In this document: in pieces, positions 11,444-37,316 of the stretch
How the letters are laid out: the number at the start of each line of letters is the position of its first letter
Numbering within the stretch: position 1 is the first letter of the stretch
Source of the DNA: Lawsonibacter asaccharolyticus
Lineage (GTDB): Bacteria > Bacillota > Clostridia > Oscillospirales > Oscillospiraceae
Assembly (NCBI GenBank): GCA_003112755.1
Contig: BFBT01000001.1
Span: forward strand, 372,001-436,000
DNA: 64,000 nt
Direction: 5' to 3'
Notes under the pieces: model-generated
The model's input: the letters and a program-made list of their open reading frames with translations, nothing else
What the model was told of the DNA's origin: nothing
Database searches by the model: none
Made by a program: the position numbers and the translations under genes

Positions 11444-12778
11444 ATGCCTATTGGTGGCGGAACTTTTACCGTTCAAAACAAGATTCTTCCCGGCGCATAC
11501 ATCAACTTTGTGAGCCTGGGAAGCGTCGTGAAAATGGGGACGCGCGGGATCGCGGCCCTTCCCCTGGAACTGAACTGGGGGCCTGAAAACAAGGTCTTTT
11601 CCATGTATGCGGAAGACTTCAACAAAACCGCCCTGAACGTGTTCGGCTACGACCCGACGGACCCCGCCGTCCTTCTGGTCCGTGAAGCCCTGAAACGCGC
11701 CAGGGCCGTTCTGATCTATCGTGTCAATTCCGGCGGCGACAAGGCCACGGCCACGATCGGCGGAATGACCGTCACGGCCGCCTGGGGCGGAACGCGCGGA
11801 AACGACGTCGCCGTCGCTGTCCTGGCGAACGCTGACGACGCGACGAAGGTCGACGTCGTGACCTACCTTGACGGAATGGTCGTGGACACCCAGACCGTCG
11901 TCAAGACCGAAGGATCGGCCGGCCTGAAAGCGAATGACTTCGTGACCTTCGGGTCCGCTTCCACCCTGGAAGTGGCCGTCGCGACGAAGCTGACCGGCGG
12001 CACGAACGGGACCGTCAACGGCGGCGCCCACACGGCCGCCCTGAACGGCTTCGAGGTCGAAACCTTCAGCGTGATCGGCTATCCCGGAACCGACGCCACG
12101 ATCAAGGCCCTGTATGCGGCCTTCGTGAAGCGCCTTCGCGACGATGAAGGGAAGAAGATCGTCGGCGTCCTGTACCAGTACGCCGGGGACAACATCGGCC
12201 TGATCAACGTCAAAAACGGCGTCGTCCTGTCCGACGGGACCACCGTGACCGGCGACAAGGCGGTCGCCTGGGTGGCCGGCGCTTCCGCTGGGGCGGAGAT
12301 CAACGAAAGCCTGACGAACGACACCTATGACGACGCCGTGGACGTGGACATCAAATATACGAAGTCCCAGTTTGAAGCGGCGATTCAGGCTGGCGAGTTC
12401 GTTTTCTATGCGGACAACGGCGCGGCCCGTGTCCTGACCGACATCAACAGCCTGACCACCTTCGGGGGCGGCGTGACGGAAGACTGGACGTCGAACCGCG
12501 TGATCCGCGTCCTGGACGGCTGGGCGAACGACGTCGCCCGTATCTTCGGCGATTCCTACATCGGCCGCGTGACCAACAGCGACACCGGCCGCCAGCTTTT
12601 CAAGGCCGACCTTGTGTCCCTGGCCTTACAGTATCAGGGGATCGACGCGATCAGCGACTTCAAGTCCGAAGACATCACCATTCAGCAGGGCAACGGGAAA
12701 CGCGACGTCGCCGTCGATTCCGCCCTGAAACCGAACGACAGTATGGAAAAGCTGTATATGACGACTGTCGTCAACTAA
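11444..12778 (+). CDS. Tail sheath protein (XkdK-like)
   Basis: A 444-residue contractile tail sheath. It opens with PGAYINFVS at residues 16-24, the typical start of the sheath N-terminal linker, and contains WGGTRGN near residue 127. The C-terminal domain (ARIFGDSYIGRVTNSDTG near 375) includes the region that connects neighbouring subunits and contracts during infection. Its presence with a tube gene directly downstream makes the phage a myovirus. Confidence 0.94.
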   Translation: MPIGGGTFTVQNKILPGAYINFVSLGSVVKMGTRGIAALPLELNWGPENKVFSMYAEDFNKTALNVFGYDPTDPAVLLVREALKRARAVLIYRVNSGGDKATATIGGMTVTAAWGGTRGNDVAVAVLANADDATKVDVVTYLDGMVVDTQTVVKTEGSAGLKANDFVTFGSASTLEVAVATKLTGGTNGTVNGGAHTAALNGFEVETFSVIGYPGTDATIKALYAAFVKRLRDDEGKKIVGVLYQYAGDNIGLINVKNGVVLSDGTTVTGDKAVAWVAGASAGAEINESLTNDTYDDAVDVDIKYTKSQFEAAIQAGEFVFYADNGAARVLTDINSLTTFGGGVTEDWTSNRVIRVLDGWANDVARIFGDSYIGRVTNSDTGRQLFKADLVSLALQYQGIDAISDFKSEDITIQQGNGKRDVAVDSALKPNDSMEKLYMTTVVN

Positions 12779-13894: not shown

Positions 13895-15811
13895 GTGGCC
13901 GGAGTAAACACACAATTCACGATCCAGGACCGCATGACGTCCCGCCTGAACACCATGATCAACGCTTCGGAACGTCTGAACCGGTCCCTGGACGCCACGG
14001 ACGCCCTGACCGAAACCGTCGATCCGGGGGCGCCCTTCGAGAGAAGCGCGGCCCCGATCGCGGCGGCCGGTCGCCAGGTCGACAACTTCAACGAACGCCA
14101 GGAACGCGCCGAACAGGGCGCGAACCGGGTGAAAAGTGTCTGGTCCAAAATGGGCGGCCTGATCCGATCCGCTATGGCGGCGTTCAGCGCGAAGAAGATC
14201 GTGGAACTGGCGGACAGCATGACCACCACCCGCGCCCGTCTGGACCTGATGAACGACGGCCTTCAAACGACGGCCGAACTTCAAGATATGATCATGGCGT
14301 CCGCGAACCGGTCGCGCGCTTCCTACCAGGCCACGGCCGACGCCGTTTCCAAAATGGGAATTATGGCGAAGGACGCCTTCAACAGCAACGAAGAACTGAT
14401 CGCCTTTTCCGAACTGATCAACAAACAGTTCACGATCGCCGGCACGTCGGCCGCCGGAATCGACGCGGCCATGTTGCAACTTACACAGGCCATGTCGTCC
14501 GGCGTCCTTCGCGGCGAGGAATTGAACAGCGTCTTTGAACAGGCGCCGACCATTATCCAGACGATCGCCGACTATCTGGGGGTCCCTATCGGGAAAATCC
14601 GGGAAATGGCCGCCGAAGGCCAGATCACGTCGAAGATCGTGAAAAATGCCATGTTGGCGTCGGCGGACGAAATCAACGCGAAGTTTGAACAAATGCCTAT
14701 GACCTTTTCCCAGGTCTGGACGATCGCGAAGAATACGATCCTGGAAGCCTTCACCCCCGTCCTGACCATGATCGGCCAGGGCGCACAGTGGATTTACGAC
14801 AACTGGTCCACGATCGCCCCGATCTTCTGGGGCCTGGCGGCCGCCGTCCTGGGCTATGCCCTGGCCCTGGGAATCCAGACGGCCGCGACATGGATCGCGA
14901 CCGGCGCCGCCCAGGCGTTCTTCACGACGCTTCTGACGAACCCCCTGTTCTGGATCGCCCTGGCGATCGGCGTCGTCGTGGCCGCGATCTATAAGTGGGT
15001 CCAGTCCGTCGGCGGGATTAAAGTCGCCTGGCTGATTGCCTGTAACGCGATCCTGACGGCCTGGTCCTGGGTGAAAATTGGCTTTATGACCGGCGTTTAC
15101 TGGGTGATGAACCTGTTCAACCGGTTACAACTGACCTTCGCCACGGTCAGCATGAATATTCAGAACTTCTGTGGCGATATGAAGGCCGGCGTCCTGATGA
15201 TCCTTCAAAACATGGTCAACGGGGCAATCGACATTATAAACGGCTTTATCAACACCCTGAACAAAATCCCCGGCGTGAACATCGGTCTGATCGACCAGGT
15301 CACTTTCGGGACCACGGCACAGCTTGAAAACGAAGCCGCGAAACAGGCCAGAGCCGCCGACCTTGCGGCCTATCAGGATCAGATCAATCAGCAGATCGCA
15401 GACCGGGACGCGGCCCTGGATTCCATGAAGGCCCAGGCGCGCGCGGAAACGGCACAGCGGGAAGCGGAGATCGCCGCCGCAAAGGCCGAATCGGCCGCCG
15501 CCGGAAGCAAAAGCACCGAACCGGACTGGGCGGCCTACGCTACCGGAGCCGGCCCCGGCGACATTGGAAACGTGGACCATGTCGGTTCCGTCGGTTCCGT
15601 GGACGAAGACGTCAACATAGCCGAAGAAGACTTGAAGTTCCTTCGGGACGTCGCCGAAATGCGCTATGTCCAGAACTTCGTGACCCTGACCCCGACCGTG
15701 GCCGTGGACGCGAAGATCAGCGAAAAGGTGGACGTCGACGAAGTAGTCGGCCGGATCGAAGCGAAACTGGAAGATGAATTTGCCGCGGCCGCCGAGGGGG
15801 TGTACGCATGA
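13895..15811 (+). CDS. Tape measure protein
   Basis: A 638-residue protein starting with GTG after AAAGGCAGGTGA. Residues about 90-280 form the conserved tape-measure domain (AMSSGVLRGEELNSVFEQAP near 205, then LGVPIGKIREMAAEGQ near 230). Residues about 310-370 are strongly hydrophobic with several possible membrane segments. The C-terminal part holds a coiled-coil Ala/Glu/Lys region near 480-540. Tape measures set tail length, and 638 residues predict a tail near 90-100 nm by the usual 0.15 nm per residue rule. The stop overlaps the next start. Confidence 0.93.
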   Translation: MAGVNTQFTIQDRMTSRLNTMINASERLNRSLDATDALTETVDPGAPFERSAAPIAAAGRQVDNFNERQERAEQGANRVKSVWSKMGGLIRSAMAAFSAKKIVELADSMTTTRARLDLMNDGLQTTAELQDMIMASANRSRASYQATADAVSKMGIMAKDAFNSNEELIAFSELINKQFTIAGTSAAGIDAAMLQLTQAMSSGVLRGEELNSVFEQAPTIIQTIADYLGVPIGKIREMAAEGQITSKIVKNAMLASADEINAKFEQMPMTFSQVWTIAKNTILEAFTPVLTMIGQGAQWIYDNWSTIAPIFWGLAAAVLGYALALGIQTAATWIATGAAQAFFTTLLTNPLFWIALAIGVVVAAIYKWVQSVGGIKVAWLIACNAILTAWSWVKIGFMTGVYWVMNLFNRLQLTFATVSMNIQNFCGDMKAGVLMILQNMVNGAIDIINGFINTLNKIPGVNIGLIDQVTFGTTAQLENEAAKQARAADLAAYQDQINQQIADRDAALDSMKAQARAETAQREAEIAAAKAESAAAGSKSTEPDWAAYATGAGPGDIGNVDHVGSVGSVDEDVNIAEEDLKFLRDVAEMRYVQNFVTLTPTVAVDAKISEKVDVDEVVGRIEAKLEDEFAAAAEGVYA

Positions 15812-17830: not shown

Positions 17831-18259
17831 ATGGCCTTGATACCGACACAGGACACGGTCACGATCGGCCAGGACGTCGAGATCGTCCAGCCGGCCGACC
17901 AGACCACCAGAACCTATAAACTGGACATTGAAGCCGGCCGCGTGGCCGGCTTTGTTGACGAAACGGAAGCCATGAAACAGGCGATCCTGAAAATCCTTCT
18001 GACGGAACGGTTCGACTACCTGATCTATTCCTGGAACTATGGAATCGAACTGAACGACATCGTCGGGAAAAGTTTTCAAGTGCTATCAAGTGAAATCAAG
18101 CGCGTGATCCGCGAAGCCCTTCTGGCGGACAGTCGGATCACGGACGTCACCGACTTCATCGTGGAGCAGATCGACAAAAGGACCGTTCACGTCAGCTTCA
18201 CCGCCGAAACAATCTTCGGCGAAATCCCTGTTGAAAGGAGGGTGACAACTGGTGTTTGA
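17831..18259 (+). CDS. Baseplate wedge protein XkdS-like (DUF2634, gp25-like)
   Basis: A 142-residue protein starting at ATG 17831 with a weak ribosome binding site. It matches the XkdS/gp25 family: ILKILLTERFDYLIYSWNYG near residue 57 contains the conserved ER of the gp25 LysM-like wedge fold. The C-terminal half (IKRVIREALLADSRITDV) is typical of this family. gp25 proteins anchor the first sheath ring to the baseplate. It overlaps the baseplate J gene by 8 bases. Confidence 0.9.
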   Translation: MALIPTQDTVTIGQDVEIVQPADQTTRTYKLDIEAGRVAGFVDETEAMKQAILKILLTERFDYLIYSWNYGIELNDIVGKSFQVLSSEIKRVIREALLADSRITDVTDFIVEQIDKRTVHVSFTAETIFGEIPVERRVTTGV

Positions 18260-19331
18260 GAATATGACCTTTGAAAACATCATGGACCGCTGTCTGGCCC
18301 GTGTGTCTTCTTCCGTGGACAAGCGCGAAGGGTCGATCGTCTATGACGCGATCGCCCCGGCGGCGGCCGAACTGGCGATCCTTTACATCGAACTTGCCTA
18401 TCTTATGGACCGGGCCTTCCCTGACACCGAAACCGGCGACGACCTGACGAAGAAGTGTCAGGAACGAAGCGTCTTCCGGAACGACGCGAAGTTCGCGATC
18501 CGGAAGGGCTACTTCGAGAAGGGGGACGGTTCCGCCTGTGAAGTGGAGATCGGAACCCGCTTTTCTGGCGGCGACATTAACTTCGTTGTCACCGAGCGGG
18601 TGGCCGCCGGCCAGTACAGACTGACGTCCGAAACCGCCGGCGCCGTCGGGAATGAATATGTCGGGGGCCTTTTCCCGATCGACTACGTCCCGGACCTGGC
18701 GGCGGCGCGCCTGGCCGACATCTTGATTCCAGGCGAAGACGAAGAAAGCGACGACAGCCTTCGGACGCGCTATTTTGCGTCCCTTGTGTCCCAGGCGTTC
18801 GGCGGGAATATCGCCGACTATAAGGGCAAGGTTGAACAGCTTCAAGGCGTGGGCGCCGTGAAGGTGTTTCCTGTCTGGAATGGCGGCGGGACCGTGAAGG
18901 TCGTGGTCGTGGACAGCGAATGGACCGTCCCTTCGGCCGACCTGGTCCAGAGCGTCCAGGAAGCAGTCGACCCTGTCGGGACCCAGGGGACCGGCGTCGG
19001 CCTGGCCCCGATCGGCCACGTCGTCACTGTCACCGGCGTCCGTGGGACGACGATTAACGTGTCTTTCAGCCTGACCTTTGACGCCGGCGCGTCCTGGGCC
19101 AGCGTTCAGACCGCCGTGAAGGCGGCGATCCAGTCCTACTTCGACGAACTGACCCACACCTGGGCCGACACGGACGGCCTGATCGTCCGCGTCAGCCAGA
19201 TCGAAACGAAGGTCTTGAACGTGCCCGGCGTCATTGACATCACCGGAACGAAGATCAACGGGCAGACCGCGAATATTTCCCTGGACGCTGACGCGATCCC
19301 GGTCCTGGGGGTGGTCACAAATGGAACTTAA
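18252..19331 (+). CDS. Baseplate J family protein (XkdT-like)
   Basis: A 359-residue protein starting with GTG after AAAGGAGGGTGA. It belongs to the baseplate J family (P2 gpJ, Mu gp47, PBSX XkdT). Recognisable parts are REGSIVYDAIAPAAAELAI near residue 23 and DSLRTRYFASLVSQAFGGN near 170, followed by AVKVFPVWNGGGTVKVVV near residue 202. These proteins form the wedge arms that trigger sheath contraction. The end overlaps the next gene by 11 bases. Confidence 0.93.
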   Translation: MFENMTFENIMDRCLARVSSSVDKREGSIVYDAIAPAAAELAILYIELAYLMDRAFPDTETGDDLTKKCQERSVFRNDAKFAIRKGYFEKGDGSACEVEIGTRFSGGDINFVVTERVAAGQYRLTSETAGAVGNEYVGGLFPIDYVPDLAAARLADILIPGEDEESDDSLRTRYFASLVSQAFGGNIADYKGKVEQLQGVGAVKVFPVWNGGGTVKVVVVDSEWTVPSADLVQSVQEAVDPVGTQGTGVGLAPIGHVVTVTGVRGTTINVSFSLTFDAGASWASVQTAVKAAIQSYFDELTHTWADTDGLIVRVSQIETKVLNVPGVIDITGTKINGQTANISLDADAIPVLGVVTNGT

Positions 19332-20620: not shown

Positions 20621-20880
20621 CCCCGTTCGCCTGTACGCCGTCGGAAACGTCGTGTCTGTTATCTAACCTATTCACCGAACTTCGGCCCGTGTGCGGTCGC
20701 TGTGAGGGCGACAGCGTCGTTATTTGCGGCCTGACCTATGAGGGGGAGGAACAGACCGTCGTCCTTCGGGACTACGGCTTCGACTATTCCGGCCGGCGCG
20801 AAACCGTTGACCTGATCAGAAAGCGAAGGTGTATCTATGGGAACAAGGCGCAATTTCCAGCGCAAAACGAACGGGACTGA
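20617..20880 (+). CDS. Small hypothetical protein between tail fibre and avd
   Basis: An 87-residue protein whose ATG overlaps the fibre stop (ATGA). It has five cysteines within the first 40 residues (CTPSETSC, then CGRC) and another near residue 74. The middle (GEEQTVVLRDYGFDYSGRRE) is beta-rich. The stop lies 41 bases inside the avd gene. The strict coupling to both neighbours suggests it belongs to the tail or retroelement operon. No family is recognised. Confidence 0.6.
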   Translation: MTPFACTPSETSCLLSNLFTELRPVCGRCEGDSVVICGLTYEGEEQTVVLRDYGFDYSGRRETVDLIRKRRCIYGNKAQFPAQNERD

Positions 20881-21313
20881 AAGCCCGCTTCACGTCCTTC
20901 CTGTGGCGTCGAAGCTGATCGACTACACCCTGGAACTGACCGACAACACGAAGCACTTCCCGAAGAAGGTCCGCTTCTCCATTGTGAACCGGATTCAGGA
21001 TCGTGTTCTGGCGATCCGCGACGACCTGGTGGACGCGAATGAAATCTTTCCGATCCTGGACGAACAGGACAAGATCGACCGACTGAAACTTCAACGCCGC
21101 GCGCTGACAGGGTGCAAGAAACTTCTGTATCTGATCGAACTGTCGAAGAAGCGCGGCTACATCGACACGGGGACCTTCGACTATTGGACGAAGCTGACCC
21201 TGGACGTCAAGTTTATGACCGCCGCCTGGTATAAGGCCGAAACAGAGCCGAAGGAGCCGACCGAAAAGGCCGACGCCGAAGCCCCGGAGCCGGCCGCGCC
21301 GGCGGAAGGTTAA
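20837..21313 (+). CDS. avd: Avd-like accessory variability determinant of a diversity-generating retroelement
   Basis: A 158-residue, highly basic, helical protein with four predicted helices. The first is around residues 18-35 (LPVASKLIDYTLELTDNT). The others contain FSIVNRIQDRVLAIRDDLVD near residue 46, LKLQRRALTGCKKLLYLIEL near 83, and FDYWTKLTLDVKFMTAAWYK near 114. This matches the four-helix-bundle family that includes Avd, the pentameric partner of DGR reverse transcriptases that binds template RNA. About 25 residues of acidic Pro/Ala/Glu tail extend past the usual length. The template repeat begins 27 bases after the stop, which strongly supports the call. Confidence 0.9.
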   Translation: MGTRRNFQRKTNGTESPLHVLPVASKLIDYTLELTDNTKHFPKKVRFSIVNRIQDRVLAIRDDLVDANEIFPILDEQDKIDRLKLQRRALTGCKKLLYLIELSKKRGYIDTGTFDYWTKLTLDVKFMTAAWYKAETEPKEPTEKADAEAPEPAAPAEG

Positions 21314-21340
21314 TTGAATATTAGGGTACGGCCTGACCCC

Positions 21341-21441
21341 CGAACGCCGGCAACGCGAACAACGCGCGGAATGTCAACACCGACGGCGGTCTGAACAACA
21401 ACAACGCCTGGAATGGCAACAACGGCGTCCGGCCGGATTTG
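21341..21441 (+). repeat. DGR template repeat (TR)
   Basis: This stretch aligns without gaps to 23325-23425 (constant offset 1984). Of 101 positions, 86 are identical. All 15 differences fall on TR adenines (9 A to T, 5 A to G, 1 A to C), and none of the 72 non-A positions differs. The TR holds 29 adenines, mostly in AAC or AAT triplets in the frame of the target, the design used by DGRs to spread codons widely without making stops. The 5' edge is at 21341, where the TR has one extra C compared with the VR; the 8 bases before it (CTGACCCC) also match. It is non-coding and lies between avd and the reverse transcriptase. Confidence 0.97.
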
Positions 21442-21606
21442 GTGGAAAACGCGACCGAGTAGGGCGACGAACCCGAAAGCAGAGGACCCCAACAAAGGAG
21501 GCCGTATCCTTCCCGACGCCGGAAAGGCCAGGGTAAACACATGACCGTCGACGCGAGGGCTTCGGCTACGACGCCCGGACTACAAGCGGCGGGGAGGTTT
21601 TTTATT
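21442..21606 (+). other. DGR spacer between template repeat and reverse transcriptase
   Basis: This 165-base stretch has no gene of its own. In the well-studied Bordetella phage DGR, the RNA downstream of the TR is needed for cDNA priming by the RT-Avd complex, so this segment is the likely equivalent. An in-frame ATG at 21541 would lengthen the reverse transcriptase by 22 residues, but it lacks a good ribosome binding site. GGGGAGG at 21591-21597 serves the ATG at 21607. The function as part of the template RNA is inference from the known system. Confidence 0.6.
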
Positions 21607-22737
21607 ATGAAAAGCGAAGTCACACAGATCCCGCCTTCCGACTTCGCCGTCATGTCCGACTTCAACAACCTGTATCAGTCCTATCTGGACGCCCGGAAGG
21701 GGAAACGCTGGAAAATGGCGGTCGTCCGCTATGAAGTGAACGCGCTGGAAAACACCATGTTCCTTCACTATATGCTGACGTCGAAGAAATACCGCCCTTC
21801 TCCATACAACACGTTCCTGATCCATGAGCCGAAGGAAAGGGTGATCATGTATAACGGATTTAAGGACAAGATCGTCCAGCATAGCCTGTGCGACTATGTC
21901 CTGGGACCCGCGCTGTCGAAGTCGTTCATATATGACAACTACGCCAGTCAGGAAGGCAAGGGAACACACTTCGGCCTGGACCGCCTGAAATACTTCATGC
22001 AGAGGTATTACAGGCAGAACGGGCCGGCCGGCTGGGTATTGAAATGCGATATAACGAAGTATTTCTACCGTATCAATCACGACGTTTTGAAGTCACAGCT
22101 TCGTCGGCTGATCCACGATCCCGACGTCCTGTGGCTTCTTGATTTGATCATAGATTCCACCGAAGGGCCGGGAATCCCGATCGGGAATCACACTTCACAG
22201 TGGTTCGCGGTCCTGTACCTGTCCGGAATGGACCACATGATCAAGGAACGCCTGGGAATCAAGTTCTACGGCCGCTACATGGACGACTTCTATTTGATCC
22301 ACCAGGACAAGGACTATTTGATCTATTGCCTGGAAGAAATCAAGAAGTATCTGGTCCCCCTGGGCCTGGAACTAAATCACAAGACGGCAATCTTCCCGCT
22401 GTCCCAGGGGATCGACTTCCTGGGATTCAGGACGTACATGACGGACAGCGGGAAGGTCGTCCGCAAAATACGCCGCGACAGCAAGAACCGGATCAGGCGG
22501 AAATTGAAGAAGTTCCGTCACCTTCTGGACGAAGGCCGGATCACCTTCGACACAGTGGTCCAGTCTTATTCGTCATGGACCGGTCACGCCGGTCACGGCA
22601 ACAGTCACCATTTGATCAGGCAGACGGACGAACTGTTCTTCGACCTGTTCAAAAAAGAATTGGAGGAATACCATGTCAAAACGAATGTCGACGTTACCCG
22701 TTGGCGCGATCGTGAAGTCGGTCAATACGAAGTATAA
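21607..22737 (+). CDS. DGR reverse transcriptase
   Basis: A 376-residue retroelement-type reverse transcriptase. The catalytic motif is YMDD at residues 224-227, with the first catalytic Asp in KCDITKYFYRI at residue 148. PIGNHTSQWF at 191-200 contains the GxxxSQ motif typical of DGR enzymes. There is no maturase, endonuclease or RNase H domain. With Avd it copies the TR RNA and misincorporates opposite adenine, giving cDNA that replaces the VR. The start at ATG 21607 follows GGGGAGG. The end overlaps the target gene by 65 bases, so the two are translationally coupled. Confidence 0.97.
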   Translation: MKSEVTQIPPSDFAVMSDFNNLYQSYLDARKGKRWKMAVVRYEVNALENTMFLHYMLTSKKYRPSPYNTFLIHEPKERVIMYNGFKDKIVQHSLCDYVLGPALSKSFIYDNYASQEGKGTHFGLDRLKYFMQRYYRQNGPAGWVLKCDITKYFYRINHDVLKSQLRRLIHDPDVLWLLDLIIDSTEGPGIPIGNHTSQWFAVLYLSGMDHMIKERLGIKFYGRYMDDFYLIHQDKDYLIYCLEEIKKYLVPLGLELNHKTAIFPLSQGIDFLGFRTYMTDSGKVVRKIRRDSKNRIRRKLKKFRHLLDEGRITFDTVVQSYSSWTGHAGHGNSHHLIRQTDELFFDLFKKELEEYHVKTNVDVTRWRDREVGQYEV

Positions 22738-24379
22738 CGGCGCTGTGATCCGCTTCGTCATTGGCCGCCAGGCTTCCGACCGCGTCGGCCTGGTGACTGA
22801 AAAGATCATCACCTTGAAGTGTTTCGACGCGAAGGAGCCTTCAAACACCAACAGCGACCGGAAGAACTACGGCAACAACCGCGCCAGCGTGGCGAACCTT
22901 CTTCAATGGCTGAACAGCGCGGCGGCCGCCGGCGGCTGGTATAAGGCACAGCACAGCGCCGACGCCCCGCCTTCGGCCGCGAACGTCTGGTCCGGCTATA
23001 ACGAATACGACCAGGAAGCCGGCTTCCTGTCCTTCTTTGAAGCGGACTTTCGGAACGCCCTTCTGGACGACACGATCACCGTCGCGAAGAACACCGTCAC
23101 CGACGGCGGCGGGTCCGAACAGATCACGCGGAAGGTCCGCCTTCTGACCCGAACCGAAGTCTTCGGGGACACCGAAAACGGAATCACAGAAGGGACCCAG
23201 TGGCCCCTATTCACCGACGCGAACAGCCGGAAGGCATACCCGACGGCCGAAGCTGTCAGCAAGTCCGAATATACCAATTCGAGCCTGAACGCTTCGTCCC
23301 CCTGGTGGTGGTGGCTTCTGACCCCGTACGCCGGCTACGCGTACAACGCGCGGGGTGTCTACGCCGACGGCGGTCTGAGCTACTACAGCGCCTGGTATGG
23401 CTACTACGGCGTCCGGCCGGCTTTGTTTTTGGCCCCTGATACTCTGGTATCTGATACAACGGACACAGACGGAGCCTATATTATTCAGTGGAATCAACCG
23501 CCGACCACCCCTTCGAGCATTTCCCACGCGACCCCCCAGGCGGGAAAGTCCCTGACGATCACGACCGGCGGGTCCACCGACCCGGAGGGGAACGCGATCA
23601 AATATGTGTGGGAACGCCGGGTCGATTCCGGGAACTATGTCCAGATCGGGATCACCACGGCGAAGTCGATCACTGACACCGTCCCGACGTCCGGGACGAA
23701 CTACCAGGTCCGGGTGAAGGCCGTTGACGCGAACGGCGCGGAATCGGCGTATAAAACCGGGACGGCCACGGCCATTTCCTACAACACCGCCCCCGTGATC
23801 AGCGGAAGCAATCAGAACGTCGGCGCGAAGACCGCCCCCCTGACCTACAAATACACCGTCACCGACGCCGAAGCGTCGTCCCAGACCTTGACCGTCACGG
23901 AAACCCTGACCAACGGGTCCGAAACGATCACCCTTCGCCAGTACAGGGCCACAAGCGGCGCCCAGAACACGGCGGACCTGACGTCTGTGTGGCTTCGCCT
24001 TCTGGCCGGGACCCACGTCCTGAAAATCACCGCCAGCGACGGCGCCGGCGGGACGGCCACGCGACAAATCACATTCAGCCGAACCGTGACCAGGATCGCC
24101 GCGTCCCGCGCGATCAGTACCGACGCTATGGTGACGAAGGTCTTCCTGTCCCTGTACCCGGCGGACATTCCGGCCGACGCGGTCCTTCACTGTGAGGTCA
24201 CGAACAACCCGTTCGACACGACCCCCGTCTGGGAAGACATTTCTTCCAAAGTCGGCCGCTTCGTTCACATTTTCCAGAACACCACCGCCGCGAAGGGCTA
24301 CGGCCTGGCCTACCGCTTCACGATCACGAAGGGCGGCCAGACGGTCGAGGTCGTCCAGGCGACGGTCCGGTTCGCGTAA
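22673..24379 (+). CDS. DGR target protein, putative diversified tail adhesin (DUF6273-like domain plus Ig/Fn3-like domains)
   Basis: A 568-residue protein preceded by TTGGAGGAATACC. Residues about 10-260 look like a DUF6273-type domain ending in WWWWLLTP, the variable segment, then GVRPALFLAP. The VR covers residues 218-251, and at least 14 codons in it match TR codons changed at adenines; most changed Asn codons now read Tyr or Ser. Residues about 275-370 look Fn3-like (TDPEGNAIKYVWERRVD). Residues about 372-470 look like a second Ig-like domain, and the last 100 residues form a further beta-rich domain. Location after tail genes and before the lysis genes points to a receptor-binding tail protein. 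The VR is in the middle of the protein, whereas many DGR targets carry it at the C-terminus. Confidence 0.9.
   Translation: MSKRMSTLPVGAIVKSVNTKYNGAVIRFVIGRQASDRVGLVTEKIITLKCFDAKEPSNTNSDRKNYGNNRASVANLLQWLNSAAAAGGWYKAQHSADAPPSAANVWSGYNEYDQEAGFLSFFEADFRNALLDDTITVAKNTVTDGGGSEQITRKVRLLTRTEVFGDTENGITEGTQWPLFTDANSRKAYPTAEAVSKSEYTNSSLNASSPWWWWLLTPYAGYAYNARGVYADGGLSYYSAWYGYYGVRPALFLAPDTLVSDTTDTDGAYIIQWNQPPTTPSSISHATPQAGKSLTITTGGSTDPEGNAIKYVWERRVDSGNYVQIGITTAKSITDTVPTSGTNYQVRVKAVDANGAESAYKTGTATAISYNTAPVISGSNQNVGAKTAPLTYKYTVTDAEASSQTLTVTETLTNGSETITLRQYRATSGAQNTADLTSVWLRLLAGTHVLKITASDGAGGTATRQITFSRTVTRIAASRAISTDAMVTKVFLSLYPADIPADAVLHCEVTNNPFDTTPVWEDISSKVGRFVHIFQNTTAAKGYGLAYRFTITKGGQTVEVVQATVRFA
23325..23425 (+). 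repeat. DGR variable repeat (VR) inside the target gene
   Basis: This segment matches the template repeat at 21341-21441 except at 15 template adenines. The last 15 matching bases before the final change (GGCGTCCGGCCGG region, 23408-23420) hold no variable site and are GC-rich, as expected for the initiation-of-homology segment at the VR 3' end. Thirteen bases after the VR, GATAC at 23438-23442 can pair with GTATC at 23447-23451 across a TCTG loop. It is a small hairpin in the place where other DGRs carry a cruciform needed for efficient retrohoming. The variable codons give a Tyr-rich surface: ten of the substituted or kept Asn positions read Tyr or Ser. Confidence 0.96.
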
Positions 24380-28847: not shown

Positions 28848-28869
28848 CTGTTCTATGGGAGGAATTACA

Positions 28870-29916
28870 ATGAAACGACGCAGATTCAAACATTTATCCT
28901 GGGACGACCGTCTGAAAATCGAATCCGGCCTGAAACACGGCGATCCCGTCCAGAAGATCGCGGACGACATCGGCGTCCACCGGAACACGATCTATAACGA
29001 GATCAAGCGCGGCCAGTACGAACACCTTAATTCCGACTTGACCACCGAAACCCGGTACAGTCCAGAGATAGCCGACGCCGCGTACAGGGCAAACCTGGCG
29101 GCAAAGGGGCCGGACCTGAAAATCGGGTCCGACCGACGTCTGGCGGAACACATCGAAAGCCGCATTGTAAACGACGGCTATTCCCCGGCGGCTGTCCTGG
29201 GCGAAATCAAGGCCCAGGGGATCGAGTTCGACACGACGATCTGTGAAGCGACATTGTATTCCTACATCAAGAAAGGCGTCTTCCTGAACCTGGAACAGTG
29301 TCACCTTCCCCGCAAGGGGAAGAAGAAGCGGCCCTATACCCGCGTTCAGAAGAAGGCGGCCAGGGCGTCAGCGGGGACCAGTATCGAAAAGCGGCCCCCA
29401 GAGATCGACGACCGCGCTGAACTGGGCGACTGGGAAATGGACTGTGTCGTCGGGAAGAAGCGGACGAAGGAAACCCTTCTGGTCCTGTCAGAGCGGAAAA
29501 GCCGGAAGGAAATAATCATCAAAATGAAGGATAAGACCACCGACAGCGTCGTCCGCGCCCTGGATCGCCTTGAACGCCGCTACGGGGCCACGTTCAGCAA
29601 AGTTTTTCGCTCGATCACCGTCGACAACGGGACAGAGTTTTCCGACGTGGAGGGCCTGGAACGGTCCTGTCTTCACAAGGGCCAGAGCCGGACAAAGGTC
29701 TACTACTGCCACCCCTATTCTTCCTATGAGCGGGGAACGAACGAAAATATAAACGGAATGATCCGCCGCTGGTTCCCGAAAGGGACCGACTTCGGGAAAG
29801 TGACGGCGAAGGCGATCAAGGCCGTCGAAGACTGGATCAACACCTATCCGCGCGGAATCCTGGGCTTCTTCACGGCGGACGACATCTTCCTTCCCTGGGT
29901 CGCTTCCCTGGCCTGA
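28870..29916 (+). CDS. IS30-family DDE transposase, probable phage mobility enzyme
   Basis: A 348-residue protein; the start ATG 28870 follows GGGAGGAATT. The N-terminal helix-turn-helix (LSWDDRLKIESGLKHGD, then IADDIGVHRNTIYNEIKRG) binds the element ends. The catalytic core has Asp in GDWEMDCVVGKKRTKETL, Asp in ITVDNGTEFSD, and Glu in ERGTNENINGMIRRWFPKG, all typical of IS30 enzymes. No inverted repeats of an ordinary IS were found right around the gene. The gene is the last of the prophage, following the regulators, and matches their codon usage. It is therefore probably the phage's own integration enzyme and not a passenger insertion. Confidence 0.9.
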   Translation: MKRRRFKHLSWDDRLKIESGLKHGDPVQKIADDIGVHRNTIYNEIKRGQYEHLNSDLTTETRYSPEIADAAYRANLAAKGPDLKIGSDRRLAEHIESRIVNDGYSPAAVLGEIKAQGIEFDTTICEATLYSYIKKGVFLNLEQCHLPRKGKKKRPYTRVQKKAARASAGTSIEKRPPEIDDRAELGDWEMDCVVGKKRTKETLLVLSERKSRKEIIIKMKDKTTDSVVRALDRLERRYGATFSKVFRSITVDNGTEFSDVEGLERSCLHKGQSRTKVYYCHPYSSYERGTNENINGMIRRWFPKGTDFGKVTAKAIKAVEDWINTYPRGILGFFTADDIFLPWVASLA

Positions 29917-29936: not shown

Positions 29937-29989
29937 ACAATTTAATCTTGACTTTTGCGGATTTTTCGCAAACTTTCCAGTAATTCTCT
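29937..29989. other. Prophage-host junction region (right end)
   Basis: These 53 AT-rich bases separate the phage terminator from the ftsQ stop codon. They contain an inverted repeat, TTTGCG and CGCAAA, around GATTTTT (29955-29973), which could be part of the transposase end sequence. The exact right end and any target duplication cannot be fixed, because the left end is outside the window. Confidence 0.5.
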
Positions 29990-30826
29990 TCATCCGGGGC
30001 TGAAGACCACATCATAGTCCTGTCGGGTCAGGTCCATTGTCCCGGTCTCATAGCTCTCCCGCTTCTCCACCACCGCCTCCAGTGCCCGCAGCTTGTGAAT
30101 AAAATCGCCGCTGATGGGCAGCTTCACATCGAACCGGCCGTCGTAGCGCAGGAGGATCTCCGTCCCCGCAGACAGGTCGATGGAGGACACCTTCTCCAGG
30201 GTCCCCCGCTCCTCCAGGGCAGCGAGCAGGGCCATCAGGCCCTGGCGCCGTGTCTCCTCCGCCTGAGGCACCGCCATCTGGGTCCCTGCCTGGGGGGAGA
30301 GGACGGTCAGGCCAGTGACGGTCAGCGCTGTGCTGTCCTCCGGAGCGGGCTCCAGCAGACGGCCGCCCACGCTGATGAGCCAAGCTTCCCCGGCCGCCGT
30401 CCCGGTCTCTTCGGGCAATTCAGTGTCCTCTGCCTCCTCCGCCGCTGGTGCCTCCGCCGTTGAAGTCCCGCTGGAGGGCAGGATGCTGGCCACCGCGTCC
30501 CACTCCCGGATCTCGATGGCAATGGTGCTGGGCAGGTGCCGGACGATGGTCAGCTCCTCCACATAGGGCAGCTTTCGCCGGATATCCTCTGAGATCTGCC
30601 CCTTGTTCAGCCGGAACAGGTTGTCGCCCAGCTGGATGCCGGACGCCTCTTCCACCTCCTGGGCGGTGTAGCGGCTGTTCCCAGCGATCAGGATGTGCTC
30701 CACCTGGAAGAAGACGGTGGCCCCGAAGGTCAGGGCAGCCACCAGTGCCGCTCCGGCCAGCAGCTTGAACAGCAGGCTGAAGCGGCCCCGGTTTCTCCTT
30801 CTCCCTCGTTTGCTTCTGGATGACAT
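29990..30826 (-). CDS. ftsQ: Cell division protein FtsQ/DivIB
   Basis: A 278-residue bitopic membrane protein of the divisome. It has a basic cytoplasmic tail (SKRGRRRNRGR), one membrane segment at about residues 15-38, then a POTRA domain (VEHILIAGNSRYTAQEVEEA near 42). A linker of about 35 residues is rich in Ala, Glu and Thr. The start at 30826 is preferred over an upstream in-frame ATG at 30934 because GGAGG lies close before it. The C-terminus looks complete, ending in DYDVVFSPG, but the prophage begins right after the stop. It is the last gene of the leftward dcw cluster. Confidence 0.88.
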   Translation of the reverse strand: MSSRSKRGRRRNRGRFSLLFKLLAGAALVAALTFGATVFFQVEHILIAGNSRYTAQEVEEASGIQLGDNLFRLNKGQISEDIRRKLPYVEELTIVRHLPSTIAIEIREWDAVASILPSSGTSTAEAPAAEEAEDTELPEETGTAAGEAWLISVGGRLLEPAPEDSTALTVTGLTVLSPQAGTQMAVPQAEETRRQGLMALLAALEERGTLEKVSSIDLSAGTEILLRYDGRFDVKLPISGDFIHKLRALEAVVEKRESYETGTMDLTRQDYDVVFSPG

Positions 30827-30875
30827 GGGTCTCTCCGTTCCTCCGGGCCCTCCGCAGCGGGTGCCCGGCCTTCTC

Positions 30876-32129
30876 TTACAAAATCGTGGTGATCTCCGCC
30901 CCCAGGGCGCGCAGGGCGGTATCCAGTCCGTCATAGCCCCGCCGGATGTACTTCAGCCCCGAGATTCGGGAGGTCCCCTCCGCCCCCAAGGCGGCCACTA
31001 CCAGCGCAGCGCCGCCCCGCAGGTCACAGCCCCGGACGCGTGCCCCGTGGAGCCTGCGCCCGTTGACCACTGCCACCCGGCCGGCTACCTGGATGTCAGC
31101 CCCCATACGGGACAGCTCATCTACATGGTGGTAACGGCTGGAAAAGATGTTCTCCACAAACATAGTGCTCCCAGTCCCGCCGGCCAGGGCGGCCATGAGG
31201 ATGGCCTGGGCATCGGTGGGGAAGCCCGGGTGGGGGGCGGTGCGCACTGGGCGGATAGCCCTCAAGGGGCTGTAGCAGGTCAGACGGATCTCCCCCGCCC
31301 CGGTCTCCACCCGGCAGCCCGCCTCCTGGAGTGCGCAGAGCACCGCTGTCAGGTGGTCCGGGTCCACTCCCGTGGTCACGATCTCGCCCCCCGCGGCTCC
31401 TACTGCGCACAGATAGGTCGCAGCGGCAATTCGGTCTCCGATTACGGTATGTTCCGCGGGGTGGAGGGGCAGTCCGCCCTCTATGGAGATGACCGGCGTC
31501 CCCGCCCCCTCCACCTGTGCACCCATGGCCCTCAGGAACTCCTGAAGGTCTACGATCTCCGGCTCCTGGGCGGCCCCCACCAGAGTGGTCCGGCCAGGAC
31601 AGCCACAGGCGGCCAGCAGGATGTTCTCTGTGGCCCCCACGCTGGGCAGGGAGAGGCACAGCTCCCGCCCCCGCATCTCCTTTCCCCGCCGGCACAGGAG
31701 GCTGCCCCCCTCCTCCCGGATCTCCGCCCCCAGCTGGCGCAGCGCGCCCAGATGGAGGTCGATGGGCCGTGGGCCCAGTTCGCAGCCCCCAGGGTAGGAC
31801 AGCTCCACCTCCCCCATCCGGGTCAGCAGCGCCCCCAGGAAGATCACAGAGGACCGCAGCTCCCCCATCAGGGAAGCGGGGATCACCGTCCCATCCAGCT
31901 CCCTCGCGTCCAGCGCGACGGTGTCCCCCTCCCTGCTCACCCCGCAGCCCAGCAGGCGCAGGATGTCCAGGGTAGCGGTCACGTCGGACAGGTCCGGACA
32001 GTTGTGGATCACGCTCTCTCCGGGGGCCAGCAGGGCGGCGGCCAGGATGGGCAGCACACTGTTCTTGGCCCCTTGAACAGCGAGCCGCCCCCGCAGGGGG
32101 GTTCCGCCGTTGATTTGATAACAGCTCAT
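30876..32129 (-). CDS. murA: UDP-N-acetylglucosamine 1-carboxyvinyltransferase
   Basis: A 417-residue enzyme that transfers enolpyruvate to UDP-GlcNAc, the first committed step of peptidoglycan synthesis. QGAKNSVLPILAAALL at residues 19-34 is the substrate-binding start of the EPSP/MurA fold. The reactive cysteine is Cys116 in GGCELGPRPIDLHLG, so fosfomycin could bind. Length and order fit MurA. The gene lies in the dcw cluster between murG and ftsQ. Confidence 0.96.
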   Translation of the reverse strand: MSCYQINGGTPLRGRLAVQGAKNSVLPILAAALLAPGESVIHNCPDLSDVTATLDILRLLGCGVSREGDTVALDARELDGTVIPASLMGELRSSVIFLGALLTRMGEVELSYPGGCELGPRPIDLHLGALRQLGAEIREEGGSLLCRRGKEMRGRELCLSLPSVGATENILLAACGCPGRTTLVGAAQEPEIVDLQEFLRAMGAQVEGAGTPVISIEGGLPLHPAEHTVIGDRIAAATYLCAVGAAGGEIVTTGVDPDHLTAVLCALQEAGCRVETGAGEIRLTCYSPLRAIRPVRTAPHPGFPTDAQAILMAALAGGTGSTMFVENIFSSRYHHVDELSRMGADIQVAGRVAVVNGRRLHGARVRGCDLRGGAALVVAALGAEGTSRISGLKYIRRGYDGLDTALRALGAEITTIL

Positions 32130-32187
32130 GGAATGGCCTCCAATCCTTTTGGATTCAGGTCATTCTATGGAAAAAAGCGGATCTTGG

Positions 32188-33306
32188 TTACTTCATCAGG
32201 GCCCGGAGGGTCCAGTAGATCTTCTCCCCTGCGTCGGGCACCGCCATAGCCGTCAGTGCCCGGACCATGTCATCCCGGCGGCGGCGGTCCCGCAGCAGAT
32301 GGTCCGCTGCGTCATAGAGGGTGTTCTCCACACAGTCCCGCTCCAGCAGCAGCACCGCGGCCCCCTGGTCGGCCAGCACCCGGGCGTTCTTCTCCTGGTG
32401 GTTGGCGGTGACGTTGGGGGAGGGGACCAGAATAGAGGGCTTGGCGATGGCGGTGAGCTCCGAGATGGTGGAGGCGCCTGCCCGACACAGCACCACATCG
32501 GCGGCGGCCATCACCAGGGGCATATCATAGATGTACTCCCGAACCTCGATGCCCGTGCCCTCCAGAGCCAGGCCCCGGCGGCCGATCTCCTCCTGCATCC
32601 AGCCGTAGTCCCGCCCGGCCCCGTGGATGTGGTGGAAGGGGGCTCCGTCATAGCATTCACGGGCAATGAACTCGCTCATCTTCCGGTTCATCACCTCCGC
32701 CCCCAGGGAACCCCAGTAGGACAGCAGAAGAGGCCGCTCATCGGTCAACCCCAGCTTTTCCCTGGCCTCCTGCCGGGTATAGCGGAAAAAGTCGCCCCGC
32801 ACCGGGGTTCCGGTGACCACCACCTTCTCCGGGTGGTCATAGTGGCTCCGGCTCTCCTCAAAGCCCACCATCACCCGGTCCACCACCTTGGACAATCCCT
32901 TGGTGGTCAGGCCGGGCACGGCGTTGGACTCGTGGATGGCGGTGGGGATGTGCCGCCGGGCGGCCTCCTTCACTACGGGGTAGGAGGCGTAGCCCCCGGT
33001 ACCCACCACCAGATCCGGCTGAAATTCGTCCAGGATGCGGGCCGCCTGCTGCTTGGATCGGACCATGTTCCGCACCGTGCCCAGGTTGTGGGCGATATCC
33101 GCCGGCGCGAAGGAGCGGTGAAAATTGGTGATGGTCACCGAGCGGATCTCATAGCCCTCTTTGGGGACCAGGTGGTTTTCCATCCCGCCATCCGCTCCCA
33201 CGAACAGGACCTTGCAGTCCGGATTCCGCTCCTGGAAGATCCGGGCCAGCGCCACCGCCGGATTGACATGTCCCGCCGTGCCGCCGCAGGTAAAAAGGAT
33301 ATTCAT
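32188..33306 (-). CDS. murG: UDP-GlcNAc:lipid I N-acetylglucosaminyltransferase
   Basis: A 372-residue GT-B glycosyltransferase that makes lipid II on the inner face of the membrane. CGGTAGHVNPAVALA at residues 7-21 is the membrane/acceptor loop. GTGGYASYPVVKEAA near 105 and HESNAVPGLTTKGLS near 127 are MurG signatures. CRAGASTISELTA near 276 binds the UDP-sugar. It has a normal length and a good ribosome binding site (GTGGAGTGA). It sits between ftsW and murA. Confidence 0.96.
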   Translation of the reverse strand: MNILFTCGGTAGHVNPAVALARIFQERNPDCKVLFVGADGGMENHLVPKEGYEIRSVTITNFHRSFAPADIAHNLGTVRNMVRSKQQAARILDEFQPDLVVGTGGYASYPVVKEAARRHIPTAIHESNAVPGLTTKGLSKVVDRVMVGFEESRSHYDHPEKVVVTGTPVRGDFFRYTRQEAREKLGLTDERPLLLSYWGSLGAEVMNRKMSEFIARECYDGAPFHHIHGAGRDYGWMQEEIGRRGLALEGTGIEVREYIYDMPLVMAAADVVLCRAGASTISELTAIAKPSILVPSPNVTANHQEKNARVLADQGAAVLLLERDCVENTLYDAADHLLRDRRRRDDMVRALTAMAVPDAGEKIYWTLRALMK

Positions 33307-33383
33307 GGTATCACTCCACTCTCTCGTTTAGGCCGAAGGCGCGCGCTCCGACGGGGCTGCCCCGCCGCCTGTCTTCCTCCGGA

Positions 33384-34592
33384 TCAGTCATTTTTGGGTG
33401 CAGGGATCTGTCTGGATATGCTCAATACGATCCCCATCTCCGCCAGCTGGATCATCAGCGCTGTTCCTCCGTAGCTGAAGAAGGGGAGGGAGATTCCGGT
33501 GTTGGGGATCAGATTGGTGACCACGCCCACGTTCAGGAAAACTTGGACCGCCAGCAGGGTGATAATGCCCACGATGGTCAGTGCTCCGAATTTGTCCCGT
33601 GCGTGGAGTGCCAGCCAGTACCCCCGCATGATCAGCAGGGAGAACAGGAGCAGCACCACCACCGCCCCGATGAATCCCAGCTCTTCCGCCACGATGGGGA
33701 ATACAAAGTCGTTTTCCGGCTCGGGGACATAGAGGAATTTCTGTCGGCTCTTGCCCAGCCCCAGGCCCAGCAGGCCGCCGGAGCCGATGGCCAGCAGGGA
33801 CTGCACCGTCTGAAAGCCGTCCCCCTGCCGCTGGGCCCATGGGTCCAGCCACAGATTGATGCGGGCCGTCATATAGGGGGTCTGGGTGATGATGAACCAC
33901 ATGGCTCCCGCCACCAGGGTCCCGCCGGCGGCGAACCAGCCCAGGCTGATCCCGGCAGCGAAGAGGACCGAGGCTCCCCCCGCCAGCACTAGGATGGTGC
34001 CCGACATGTGGGGCTCCATCAGCATCAGCAGGGCGATCACCATCAGGATGGCCCCATAGGGCACCAGCTCCAGAAAGCCGATGCGGTCCAGCCGCTCCAG
34101 CGTCCGGCCGGTGAGGGTGCGGCGGCTCCACTTCTTCTTTTTCTCTGTGTCCCGCTTGGACAGGCGGGTGGCAAAAAACAGGATCACCGCCACCTTGGCC
34201 ACCTCCGAGGGCTGGAACTGGATAGGGCCGATGCGCACCCAGCGCTTCACCTCATTGAGCTCCACTCCCAGGGGACTGAGGGCCAGCACCAGCAGGAGGA
34301 TAGCGGCCACGATGCCAGGTACGGACAGCAGTCGGAAAGTCTGGTAGTTGATCTTGGAGACAAGGAACATGACCACTACCCCAGCCGCGGCATAGACCGC
34401 CTGGTTTTTGATATATACCAGCGGGTCGCCGTCGTTGTAATAGGCCGTGGCAAAGGAGGCGGAGAACATCATGATGAGTCCCACGCCCAATAGAAGCATG
34501 GTCAGCATGAGAAAGGGCAGATCCAGCGGCCCCCGGGCCAGCTGTTCCTCCACCGTGAGGTCGCGCTTTGGTTTTCGGGCCACGAGGACCAC
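33384..34592 (-). CDS. ftsW: SEDS peptidoglycan polymerase FtsW/SpoVE
   Basis: A 402-residue integral membrane protein with about ten hydrophobic segments. It shows the SEDS features MMFSASFATAYYNDGDP near residue 41, RWVRIGPIQFQPSEVAKVA near 118 and LLGLGLGKSRQKFLYVPEPE near 270. FtsW/SpoVE polymerises glycan strands with a class B PBP. The SpoVD-type PBP of the same cluster is its natural partner. Start is GTG at 34592, and a second in-frame GTG at 34583 has better spacing to the GGGGG site. Confidence 0.93.
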   Translation of the reverse strand: MVLVARKPKRDLTVEEQLARGPLDLPFLMLTMLLLGVGLIMMFSASFATAYYNDGDPLVYIKNQAVYAAAGVVVMFLVSKINYQTFRLLSVPGIVAAILLLVLALSPLGVELNEVKRWVRIGPIQFQPSEVAKVAVILFFATRLSKRDTEKKKKWSRRTLTGRTLERLDRIGFLELVPYGAILMVIALLMLMEPHMSGTILVLAGGASVLFAAGISLGWFAAGGTLVAGAMWFIITQTPYMTARINLWLDPWAQRQGDGFQTVQSLLAIGSGGLLGLGLGKSRQKFLYVPEPENDFVFPIVAEELGFIGAVVVLLLFSLLIMRGYWLALHARDKFGALTIVGIITLLAVQVFLNVGVVTNLIPNTGISLPFFSYGGTALMIQLAEMGIVLSISRQIPAPKND

Positions 34593-34653
34593 CCCCTGTT
34601 CTGAGATACTGTGACAGTGACCCGCCGGAGAGAAAAGCGCTCCGCCCCGCCCG

Positions 34654-35640
34654 TCACATGGGATATCGGTTCATGACGCCCAGGAAGGCCAGCACGCAGA
34701 GGACCAGGGTGGCGCCGGAGAAAACGCAGAACAGCTTGGTCTCGCTCCAGCCCCCCAGCTCCAGGTGGTGATGAAGGGGCGCCATCCGGAAAAAGCGTTT
34801 GCCGTGGGTCGCTTTGAAGTAGATCACCTGGATGATATCAGAGAGAGTCTCCAGCACATAGATCAGTCCCACCAGAGGGATAACCAGGGGGACGTCCAGG
34901 GCAAAGGCCAGACCGCACACCGCCCCCCCCAGGAACAGGGAGCCGGTGTCCCCCATGAACACCTTGGCTGGATGGAAGTTATAGATCAGAAAGGCGGACA
35001 GGCCGCCCGCCAGGGCCGCAGACACCACCGTCAGGTCGCTGCGGTTGAACCAGGCAGACACCGCCACATAGAAGAGGGCGACGGGGATGGTGACCCCGGT
35101 GGCCAGCCCGTCGATGCCGTCCGTCAGGTTCACTGCGTTGACGGTAGCCACCATGACGAAGGCGGCGAAGATCATATAGACCACCCATGGCATGGCCAGC
35201 TCCACATTAAAAAAGGGGATGTACAGACTCGGGGTCAGATATCCGTAGTTGCGCAGCAGCACGGTGAACGCCACCGCCGCCGCCAGCTGGAGAAGAAATT
35301 TCTGCAGGGCCGTCAGCCCCTCGTTGGCGTGATGGCGCAGCTTTTGAAAGTCATCCACAAAGCCAATGGCTCCAAACACCAGAGCGAAGAGGTACACGAA
35401 GAGATAGATAAAGTTCCCCCGCTGGATCTCTTCCCAGCCCGCGGTCACAATGGCCACCCCGATCCCCAGGATAAACATCAGTCCGCCCATGGTGGGCGTT
35501 CCCTGCTTGGACATGTGCCAGGTGGGTCCGTCCTCCCGGATGCTCTGCCCCGCTTTCCACTTGCGCAGCAGGGGGACCAAGATCTGTCCCGCAATAAAGG
35601 TCACTCCAAAGGCCACGATAAAGCTGAGAATATATGACAT
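34654..35640 (-). CDS. mraY: Phospho-N-acetylmuramoyl-pentapeptide transferase
   Basis: A 328-residue membrane enzyme that joins UDP-MurNAc-pentapeptide to undecaprenyl phosphate, giving lipid I. GPTWHMSKQGTPTMGGLMF near residue 39 and VNLTDGIDGLATG near 170 are the MraY signatures. FMGDTGSLFLGGAVCGLA near 230 holds another catalytic Asp, and MAPLHHHLELGGWSE near 293 closes the active site. The start at 35640 follows GGAGGGTGG. murF, usually just upstream, is missing. Confidence 0.96.
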   Translation of the reverse strand: MSYILSFIVAFGVTFIAGQILVPLLRKWKAGQSIREDGPTWHMSKQGTPTMGGLMFILGIGVAIVTAGWEEIQRGNFIYLFVYLFALVFGAIGFVDDFQKLRHHANEGLTALQKFLLQLAAAVAFTVLLRNYGYLTPSLYIPFFNVELAMPWVVYMIFAAFVMVATVNAVNLTDGIDGLATGVTIPVALFYVAVSAWFNRSDLTVVSAALAGGLSAFLIYNFHPAKVFMGDTGSLFLGGAVCGLAFALDVPLVIPLVGLIYVLETLSDIIQVIYFKATHGKRFFRMAPLHHHLELGGWSETKLFCVFSGATLVLCVLAFLGVMNRYPM

Positions 35641-35704
35641 AGCTGCCACCCTCCAGGCATTCTTTCTCTTGGGTATCACACACAGGTCTGTGCTCAATGG
35701 CGTA

Positions 35705-37219: not shown

Positions 37220-37316
37220 GGTGTCACCCCTCAAGGGTGGGTTTCATTTTCTTTAAGAGGTGCCAAATAAGGAAAGACCGCCGCAAAAAATCAGGTCTTT
37301 CTCCGCCTGTGTCTTC

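Follow-up and report, generated by a model that had tools for sequence, protein, structure and literature searches.

A 64,000-nucleotide stretch of Lawsonibacter asaccharolyticus DNA (contig BFBT01000001.1, positions 372,001 to 436,000; hereafter the window, with contig positions prefixed C1) contains a diversity-generating retroelement (DGR) in a contractile-tail prophage. In the DGR of Bordetella phage BPP-1, reverse transcription of RNA from a template repeat (TR) introduces errors at adenines, and the resulting cDNA takes the place of a variable repeat (VR) in a target gene. Here we propose that one TR serves two targets in the 36.9-kilobase (kb) prophage: the reverse transcriptase (RT) and the accessory protein Avd are predicted to rewrite the repeats in both a tentaclin gene inside the window (target 1) and a 227-residue DUF6273 gene upstream of it (target 2), and the second product is likely intracellular. 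We regard this combined claim as fairly probable, if short of secure.

Phage DGRs are mostly read as receptor-switching tools. If a second target located with replication genes regularly partners a virion target, the hypermutation machinery would also serve a contest inside the cell. The purpose of the second target would then become testable, namely whether it is on the virion or not, and what it binds.

The cassette and its two variable repeats

The cassette lies on the forward strand in the order avd, TR, RT and target, with all frames intact. The accessory gene expected of a DGR is represented by avd (accessory variability determinant; 20837-21313, 158 residues), which matches phrog_3206 'Avd protein of DGR' (E = 4.3e-26) and, below the cut-off, NCBIfam DivGenRetAVD (E = 3.6e-7); no Pfam match was found for it. 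The TR (21338-21441) is followed by the RT gene (21607-22737, 376 residues; RVT_1, E = 2.6e-16; phrog_1423, E = 7.6e-134), whose likely start is 21607 in a frame open from 21541. Target 1 (22673-24379, 568 residues; PF19789, DUF6273, E = 6.3e-29) contains the first variable repeat, VR1 (23322-23425). The ungapped alignment of TR and VR1 spans 104 base pairs (bp) and has 15 differences (9 A>T, 5 A>G and 1 A>C), all of which fall within the 29 adenines of the TR, and none of the 75 non-adenine positions is changed (hypergeometric p = 1.6e-10). The same pair was recovered alike by a repeat finder without base preference and by ungapped BLASTN; a chance repeat is ruled out by the p value and the unbiased BLASTN result. 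The original prediction, that a prophage with a contractile tail carries a complete DGR specific for adenines, is supported by an intact RT, Avd, TR, VR and target and by sheath, tape measure and baseplate J genes. It had also counted the 15 differences correctly, but over 101 aligned positions with 72 unchanged non-adenines.

A genome-wide search with the TR found three sites: the TR itself, VR1, and a second variable repeat, VR2, at C1:370788-370890 (L004:15788-15890), 1.2 kb before the window and 22.5 kb upstream of the TR. Over 103 bp of ungapped BLASTN alignment, all 12 differences between VR2 and the TR are at TR adenines, and 0 of 74 non-adenine positions are changed. Both VRs are changed at 5 of the 29 adenine sites, including position 100, and their flanks are unalike. 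VR2 lies in target 2 (C1:370361-371044, 227 codons), which has a plausible ribosome site and a DUF6273 match at its VR end, and which matches phrog_9958 (function unknown) over its full length (E = 5.7e-41). Like its family members in phages nd4 and nd12, target 2 is a small single-domain DUF6273 protein with the VR near the C-terminus. A Foldseek search against the PDB returned nothing at E = 0.001, and a fold search in BFVD gave four matches at E <= 0.001, two of which are named DUF6273. The original prediction supposed that the phage diversifies an adhesin to change its host or receptor; this is incomplete, since the TR has a further match in a gene located among replication genes, for which a receptor-binding role looks less likely.

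One of the 15 differences in VR1, the A>C change at TR position 100, was considered as a product of mutagenesis and rejected. Because the C is present in both VRs and the codon is Ala throughout the alleles described below (51 of 51 for target 2 and 121 of 121 for the tentaclin, among the matches listed), the change looks like a fixed difference at the TR/VR boundary (IMH*/IMH), which would leave 14 mutagenised sites in VR1.

In target 1, an N-terminal DUF6273/C-lec domain (PF19789, residues 40-254) holds the VR internally, at residues 218-251, and a putative Ig-like part lies behind it (Big_9, E = 7.3e-4, below the cut-off). The protein matches phrog_10993 'Hoc-like head decoration' over its full length (E = 1.8e-202), and full-length tblastn matches to the tentaclins of nd4 and nd12 have 42-43% identity. 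The target in the window is of the tentaclin type, and its domain make-up suggests that it is likely a virion protein that binds a variable surface ligand.

The RT contains YMDD and IGNHTSQ, in agreement with the motifs that were first read from it (YMDD and GNHTSQ). Its best PDB match is 8ub7 (E = 5.8e-42), which we take to be the BPP-1 RT; the next PDB entries are at 1.6e-10. As had been anticipated, the RT sits with DGR enzymes in a phylogeny: one branch (84/77; 98% of bootstraps) divides 17 DGR RTs from 3 retron-like ones, and a group II-like RT falls outside at 80/57, in a tree of moderate support and long branches that took in 21 of 23 rows. The top NCBIfam match is a group II model far below its cut-off, and PADLOC gives many RT models. 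An identity as a retron or defence RT was rejected by the PDB match and the tree. A separate RVT_1 match, at G000:C3:63708-64316 (L091), lies in the middle of a 948-residue protein; judged by eye, its N-terminus resembles exonuclease III and its C-terminal part is rich in Cys and His.

Spread of the layout and natural alleles

A distant second VR is present in 15 of the 18 DGRs checked: those of this prophage, G201, G203, G070 (four DGRs), nd4, nd12, Lelie, Toutatis, Shimadzu, Lagaffe, Brigit and G022 (names beginning with G are our own). In these 15, ungapped BLASTN, which has no base preference, places 171 of 174 differences of the second VRs and 217 of 222 of the first VRs at TR adenines. 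Note that our adenine-favouring scan trims non-adenine mismatches; these fractions are therefore taken from BLASTN, and the second VR of Brigit is from a stretch delimited by BLASTN. Lelie was scanned over 50,000 of 53,400 bases and Toutatis over 50,000 of 54,725. The set of 18 leaves aside G200 (the L007 locus), L011-L016 and G202 (L009), whose contigs are too short or cut for a distant target, the RT matches L019, L021 and L023 (stretches of 3-4 kb), and G176, which has a DUF6273 target beside its RT.

In G070, each of four different TRs pairs with one second VR without any non-adenine difference, and the listed cross-pairings have 6-11 such differences; for three of these four DGRs, the assignment of the second VR, which is on a different stretch or contig, was made through its TR match. 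In G022, the layout was predicted from an RT and a match to the target-2 profile about 22 kb away, and that site then proved to hold a VR whose 11 differences are all at TR adenines. Among 200 genomes of the family, including the present one, there are 7 RT matches and 11 target-2 profile matches, of which 4 coincide (Fisher p = 1.6e-4). The layout is also kept in nd4, Brigit, Lelie, Toutatis, Shimadzu and Lagaffe, where the RTs are 33-48% identical to this RT. In Brigit (L106, 61,716 bases), the second VR (4373-4449) has 7 adenine changes and one C>T over 77 bp, and its gene (3948-4559, 203 residues) directly precedes the exonuclease gene. The viral_contigs scan confirmed no close relative of target 2; a relative with 56% identity, on IMG/VR contig G203, was found otherwise.

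For natural variation, about 5.8 billion proteins were searched, which yielded 2141 relatives of target 2; alleles were drawn from the best 120 of these, so that the following comparisons are made at the protein level and among the best-listed homologues. Of the 52 listed proteins of 227 residues, 51 were used, including our own, and P0076 was dropped as shifted and more divergent. These 51 alleles comprise 49 VR peptides on 30 backbones, and 9 backbones carry two or more VR peptides. Mean variability is 0.51 at the 16 TR-adenine codons; the 18 remaining VR codons average 0.020, and the 193 positions beyond the VR average 0.019. In short, the VR is diverse in nature and the rest of the gene is conserved, as expected of a DGR target.

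The corresponding tentaclin set, 121 proteins made up of the 120 matches listed and our own, contains 118 VR peptides, with variabilities of 0.617 at adenine codons, 0.063 at other VR codons and 0.099 outside. The expectation that VRs would vary only at TR-adenine positions holds for most of the variation, but some VR cells (one codon in one allele) cannot be reached from our own TR by adenine changes. In target 2 these number 52 of 1734: a single GGT codon, mostly Ser in the alleles, accounts for 43, which a TR polymorphism would fit, the last codon for 6, and other codons for 3. In the tentaclin they number 250 of 4114, 238 of them at four codons; since the set spans 80-95% identity to our own protein, other TRs are probably mixed in. 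Tyr at AAN codons is more frequent in target 2 than in the tentaclin (0.370 versus 0.246; chi-square p = 4e-7); as the cells lack independence, the difference does no more than hint at selection of the two proteins for different partners.

Position and probable role of the second target

In this prophage, the gene order read from PHROGs matches is a Mu Gam-like end-protection protein, an Erf-like annealing protein, replication initiation, a DnaC loader, RusA and target 2; an 89-residue protein and a DNA methyltransferase come next, and a PAPS-reductase-like protein lies farther along. The last of these genes (L004:17857-18663, early region) also matches PADLOC SspD (E = 1.1e-12) and is perhaps a DNA-modification gene. 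Replication initiation, DnaC, RusA and target 2 are kept together in G201 and G203. A pyrophosphatase gene precedes target 2 in nd12 and in contig C1 of G070, and a polymerase exonuclease subunit follows it in nd4. In Shimadzu, target 2 is between a DNA methyltransferase and Erf/SSB, and in Toutatis, methyltransferases lie on one side of the second target and a replication protein on the other, with unannotated genes intervening. The second target of Lagaffe immediately precedes exonuclease, Gam, ERF and SSB, and that of Brigit immediately precedes an exonuclease, with RecT, a replisome organiser, DnaI and RusA next. In each of the 10 phages whose neighbouring genes are annotated, then, the second target has genes of replication, recombination or DNA metabolism around it; Lelie, whose neighbours are unannotated, is outside this count. 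In Lagaffe (L104), the second VR is in an FGE/Mtd-like gene (31798-33060) that is not DUF6273-like, and therefore the early position is common to different target families.

Two further observations concern the proteins themselves. Some relatives of target 2 are fused in frame to Lar (restriction alleviation; E = 3.9e-8) or to DUF3310 (E = 2.5e-16), with 2 and 20 cases, respectively, among the best 120 of the 2141 homologues. By hydropathy, none of 14 second targets has a membrane-like segment, and no secretion or membrane signal was found in these proteins.

From the gene position, the absence of any hydrophobic segment of the membrane or signal type, and the fusions to Lar and DUF3310, we read target 2 as likely an early protein inside the cell, possibly acting in counter-defence, rather than as a receptor-binding protein. 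By analogy with BPP-1, TR RNA would be reverse-transcribed with adenine errors and the cDNA would replace both VR1 and VR2. The tentaclin on the virion would bind a variable surface ligand, as its domains suggest, and target 2 would be made with the replication genes and bind a partner inside the cell that itself varies; the most plausible candidate is a defence factor belonging to the host or to a rival element. More tentatively, and with rather less confidence than an even chance would imply, we suggest that one DGR in Clostridia phages serves two infection stages, with a virion lectin outside the cell and an early, cytoplasmic, lectin-fold binder inside it, antibody-like and directed against defences or competitors, and sometimes fused to a restriction-alleviation or nucleotide-metabolism domain.

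A number of points weigh against an early, intracellular target served by the same DGR. The early position is taken from gene order only. The fusions come from the branch of nd12 and contig C8 of G070, and target 2 of this prophage is unfused; moreover, the fused relatives may make an unfused form as well, from an internal start that has a ribosome site. PADLOC families give no match to target 2, and in nd4 and nd12, target 2 was supposed to be Mtd-like (PMC10743442). A distant second VR is absent from BPP-1, VP58.5 and BalMu-1, which have one VR each, and read data for Lelie, Lagaffe_CP and CP11 gave no peak of variation at their VRs (PMC11792537). Finally, a hairpin just after the VR is not enriched: a stem of at least 5 occurs in 3 of 24 VRs versus 2.39 expected, and in this prophage, VR1 has such a hairpin (p = 0.047) and VR2 has none with a stem of at least 5. 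This hairpin is a feature of BPP-1 and is not universal.

Both targets might instead be receptor-binding proteins of the virion, the tentaclin on the head or tail and target 2 as an Mtd-like tip protein encoded away from the tail genes. Besides having been supposed for nd4 and nd12 (PMC10743442), this arrangement would suit the DUF6273 domain and VR hairpin that the two targets have in common, the FGE/Mtd-like second target of Lagaffe (found here and in PMC11792537), and the occurrence of virion parts outside the late region in some phages. It is at odds with the DNA-metabolism neighbourhood in all 10 annotated phages, with the relatives fused to Lar and DUF3310, and with the lack of an Ig or other virion-anchor domain in target 2 in Pfam searches, and we consider it unlikely, though a serious alternative. 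A role against rivals rather than against host defence, in which target 2, produced early in the lysogen or during infection, would prevent superinfection or detect rival phages, appears to us distinctly improbable: early position and high diversity would suit any contest with rivals, and DGR-diversified putative antigen sensors are described in multicellular bacteria (PMC10907252), but the lack of a secretion or membrane signal makes blocking at the surface less likely, with an intracellular sensor still compatible. That an old copying event left VR2 behind as a relic, in a gene no longer served by the DGR, as the unalike flanks and the missing read-data peak at the VRs of Lelie (PMC11792537) might suggest, is very improbable and nearly refuted by the allele data, given 49 VR peptides among 51 otherwise near-identical listed proteins with 9 backbones carrying two or more, 0 of 74 non-adenine positions changed, and a layout shared by phages with RTs of 33-48% identity to this one.

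The prophage and related systems

The prophage is bounded by exact 16-bp direct repeats at C1:365066-365081, upstream of the window, and at its right end, C1:401959 (window 29959-29974, forward strand), 36,893 bp from repeat to repeat; it occupies window positions 1-29974 and about 6.9 kb before the window. The contractile tail is represented, all on the forward strand, by a tail sheath gene (11444-12778; four Phage_sheath/Gp18 families), a tape measure gene (13895-15811; TMP_3, E = 1.9e-49) and a baseplate J-like gene (18252-19331; E = 1.6e-52). An IS30-family transposase gene (28855-29916, forward strand; NF033563, E = 1.8e-72) lies 43 bp from one prophage end and is kept in relatives. No match to a tyrosine or serine integrase was found inside the prophage, and the transposase is a candidate for its integration enzyme. 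We dropped this as a novelty because an earlier paper names an IS30-type enzyme as Lagaffe's integrase, again with flanking direct repeats (PMC5883640). The prophage lies in a cell-division cluster (window 29990-37234), where it adjoins an FtsQ-type gene, past which lie genes for FtsW, MraY and a Mur ligase. Its other flank reads, by eye, as what we take to be the start of ftsZ. The exact 16-bp core of an empty integration site was not found in the 30 congeners searched, and Rfam and tRNA scans of the window gave no match.

BPP-1 (mtd-avd-TR-brt) resembles the present system in its RT, Avd, TR and adenine-only VR (17 of 17 differences over 119 bp in our adenine-favouring scan), and differs in that its target precedes avd, its VR is at the 3' end, and only one VR matches the TR. 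The BPP-1 record (L102) has an annotated 'variable region 2' at 33229-33558, in bbp36 near an exonuclease gene; it shows no significant match to the BPP-1 TR and, on this comparison, is not a TR-matching VR.

A close likeness is to the two-target tentaclin DGRs of nd4 and nd12 (OR777945 and OR777946), published in 2023 (PMC10743442), which have the same avd-TR-RT-tentaclin order, an internal tentaclin VR, a second small DUF6273 target with a VR near its 3' end, and adenine-only VRs, with RTs 46% and 59% identical to this RT, respectively. That paper calls the purpose of the second, functionally different target 'unclear', and none of the words early, replication, intracellular and cytoplasm occurs in its accessible part. 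In Faecalibacterium phages, second VRs were reported for Lelie, CP11 and Lagaffe_CP; Lelie and CP11 have large and small DUF6273 targets, Lagaffe_CP has two VRs, and both VRs vary among cognate genomes of CP11 and Lagaffe_CP (PMC11792537). Both VRs of Lelie, Toutatis, Brigit and Lagaffe were found in our scans, Lagaffe differing in its FGE/Mtd-like second target; for Toutatis and Brigit, the accessible part of PMC5883640 attributes one target each, versus two VRs each here.

A non-structural second target, with a proposed role in phage-host conflict, was published in 2021 for the DGR of Quimbyviridae (PMC8008677). As described there, that target is likewise away from structural genes and near methyltransferases, whereas these are phages of Bacteroidetes with the RT split over several frames and another gene neighbourhood; the comparison is by description only. 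In searches of a limited literature collection, mostly on DGRs or tentaclins, where absence is not proof, no title or abstract opening among those listed described an early-gene target family in these Clostridia phages. The cassette itself thus belongs to a known kind, and the early, intracellular reading proposed for target 2 is the part added here.

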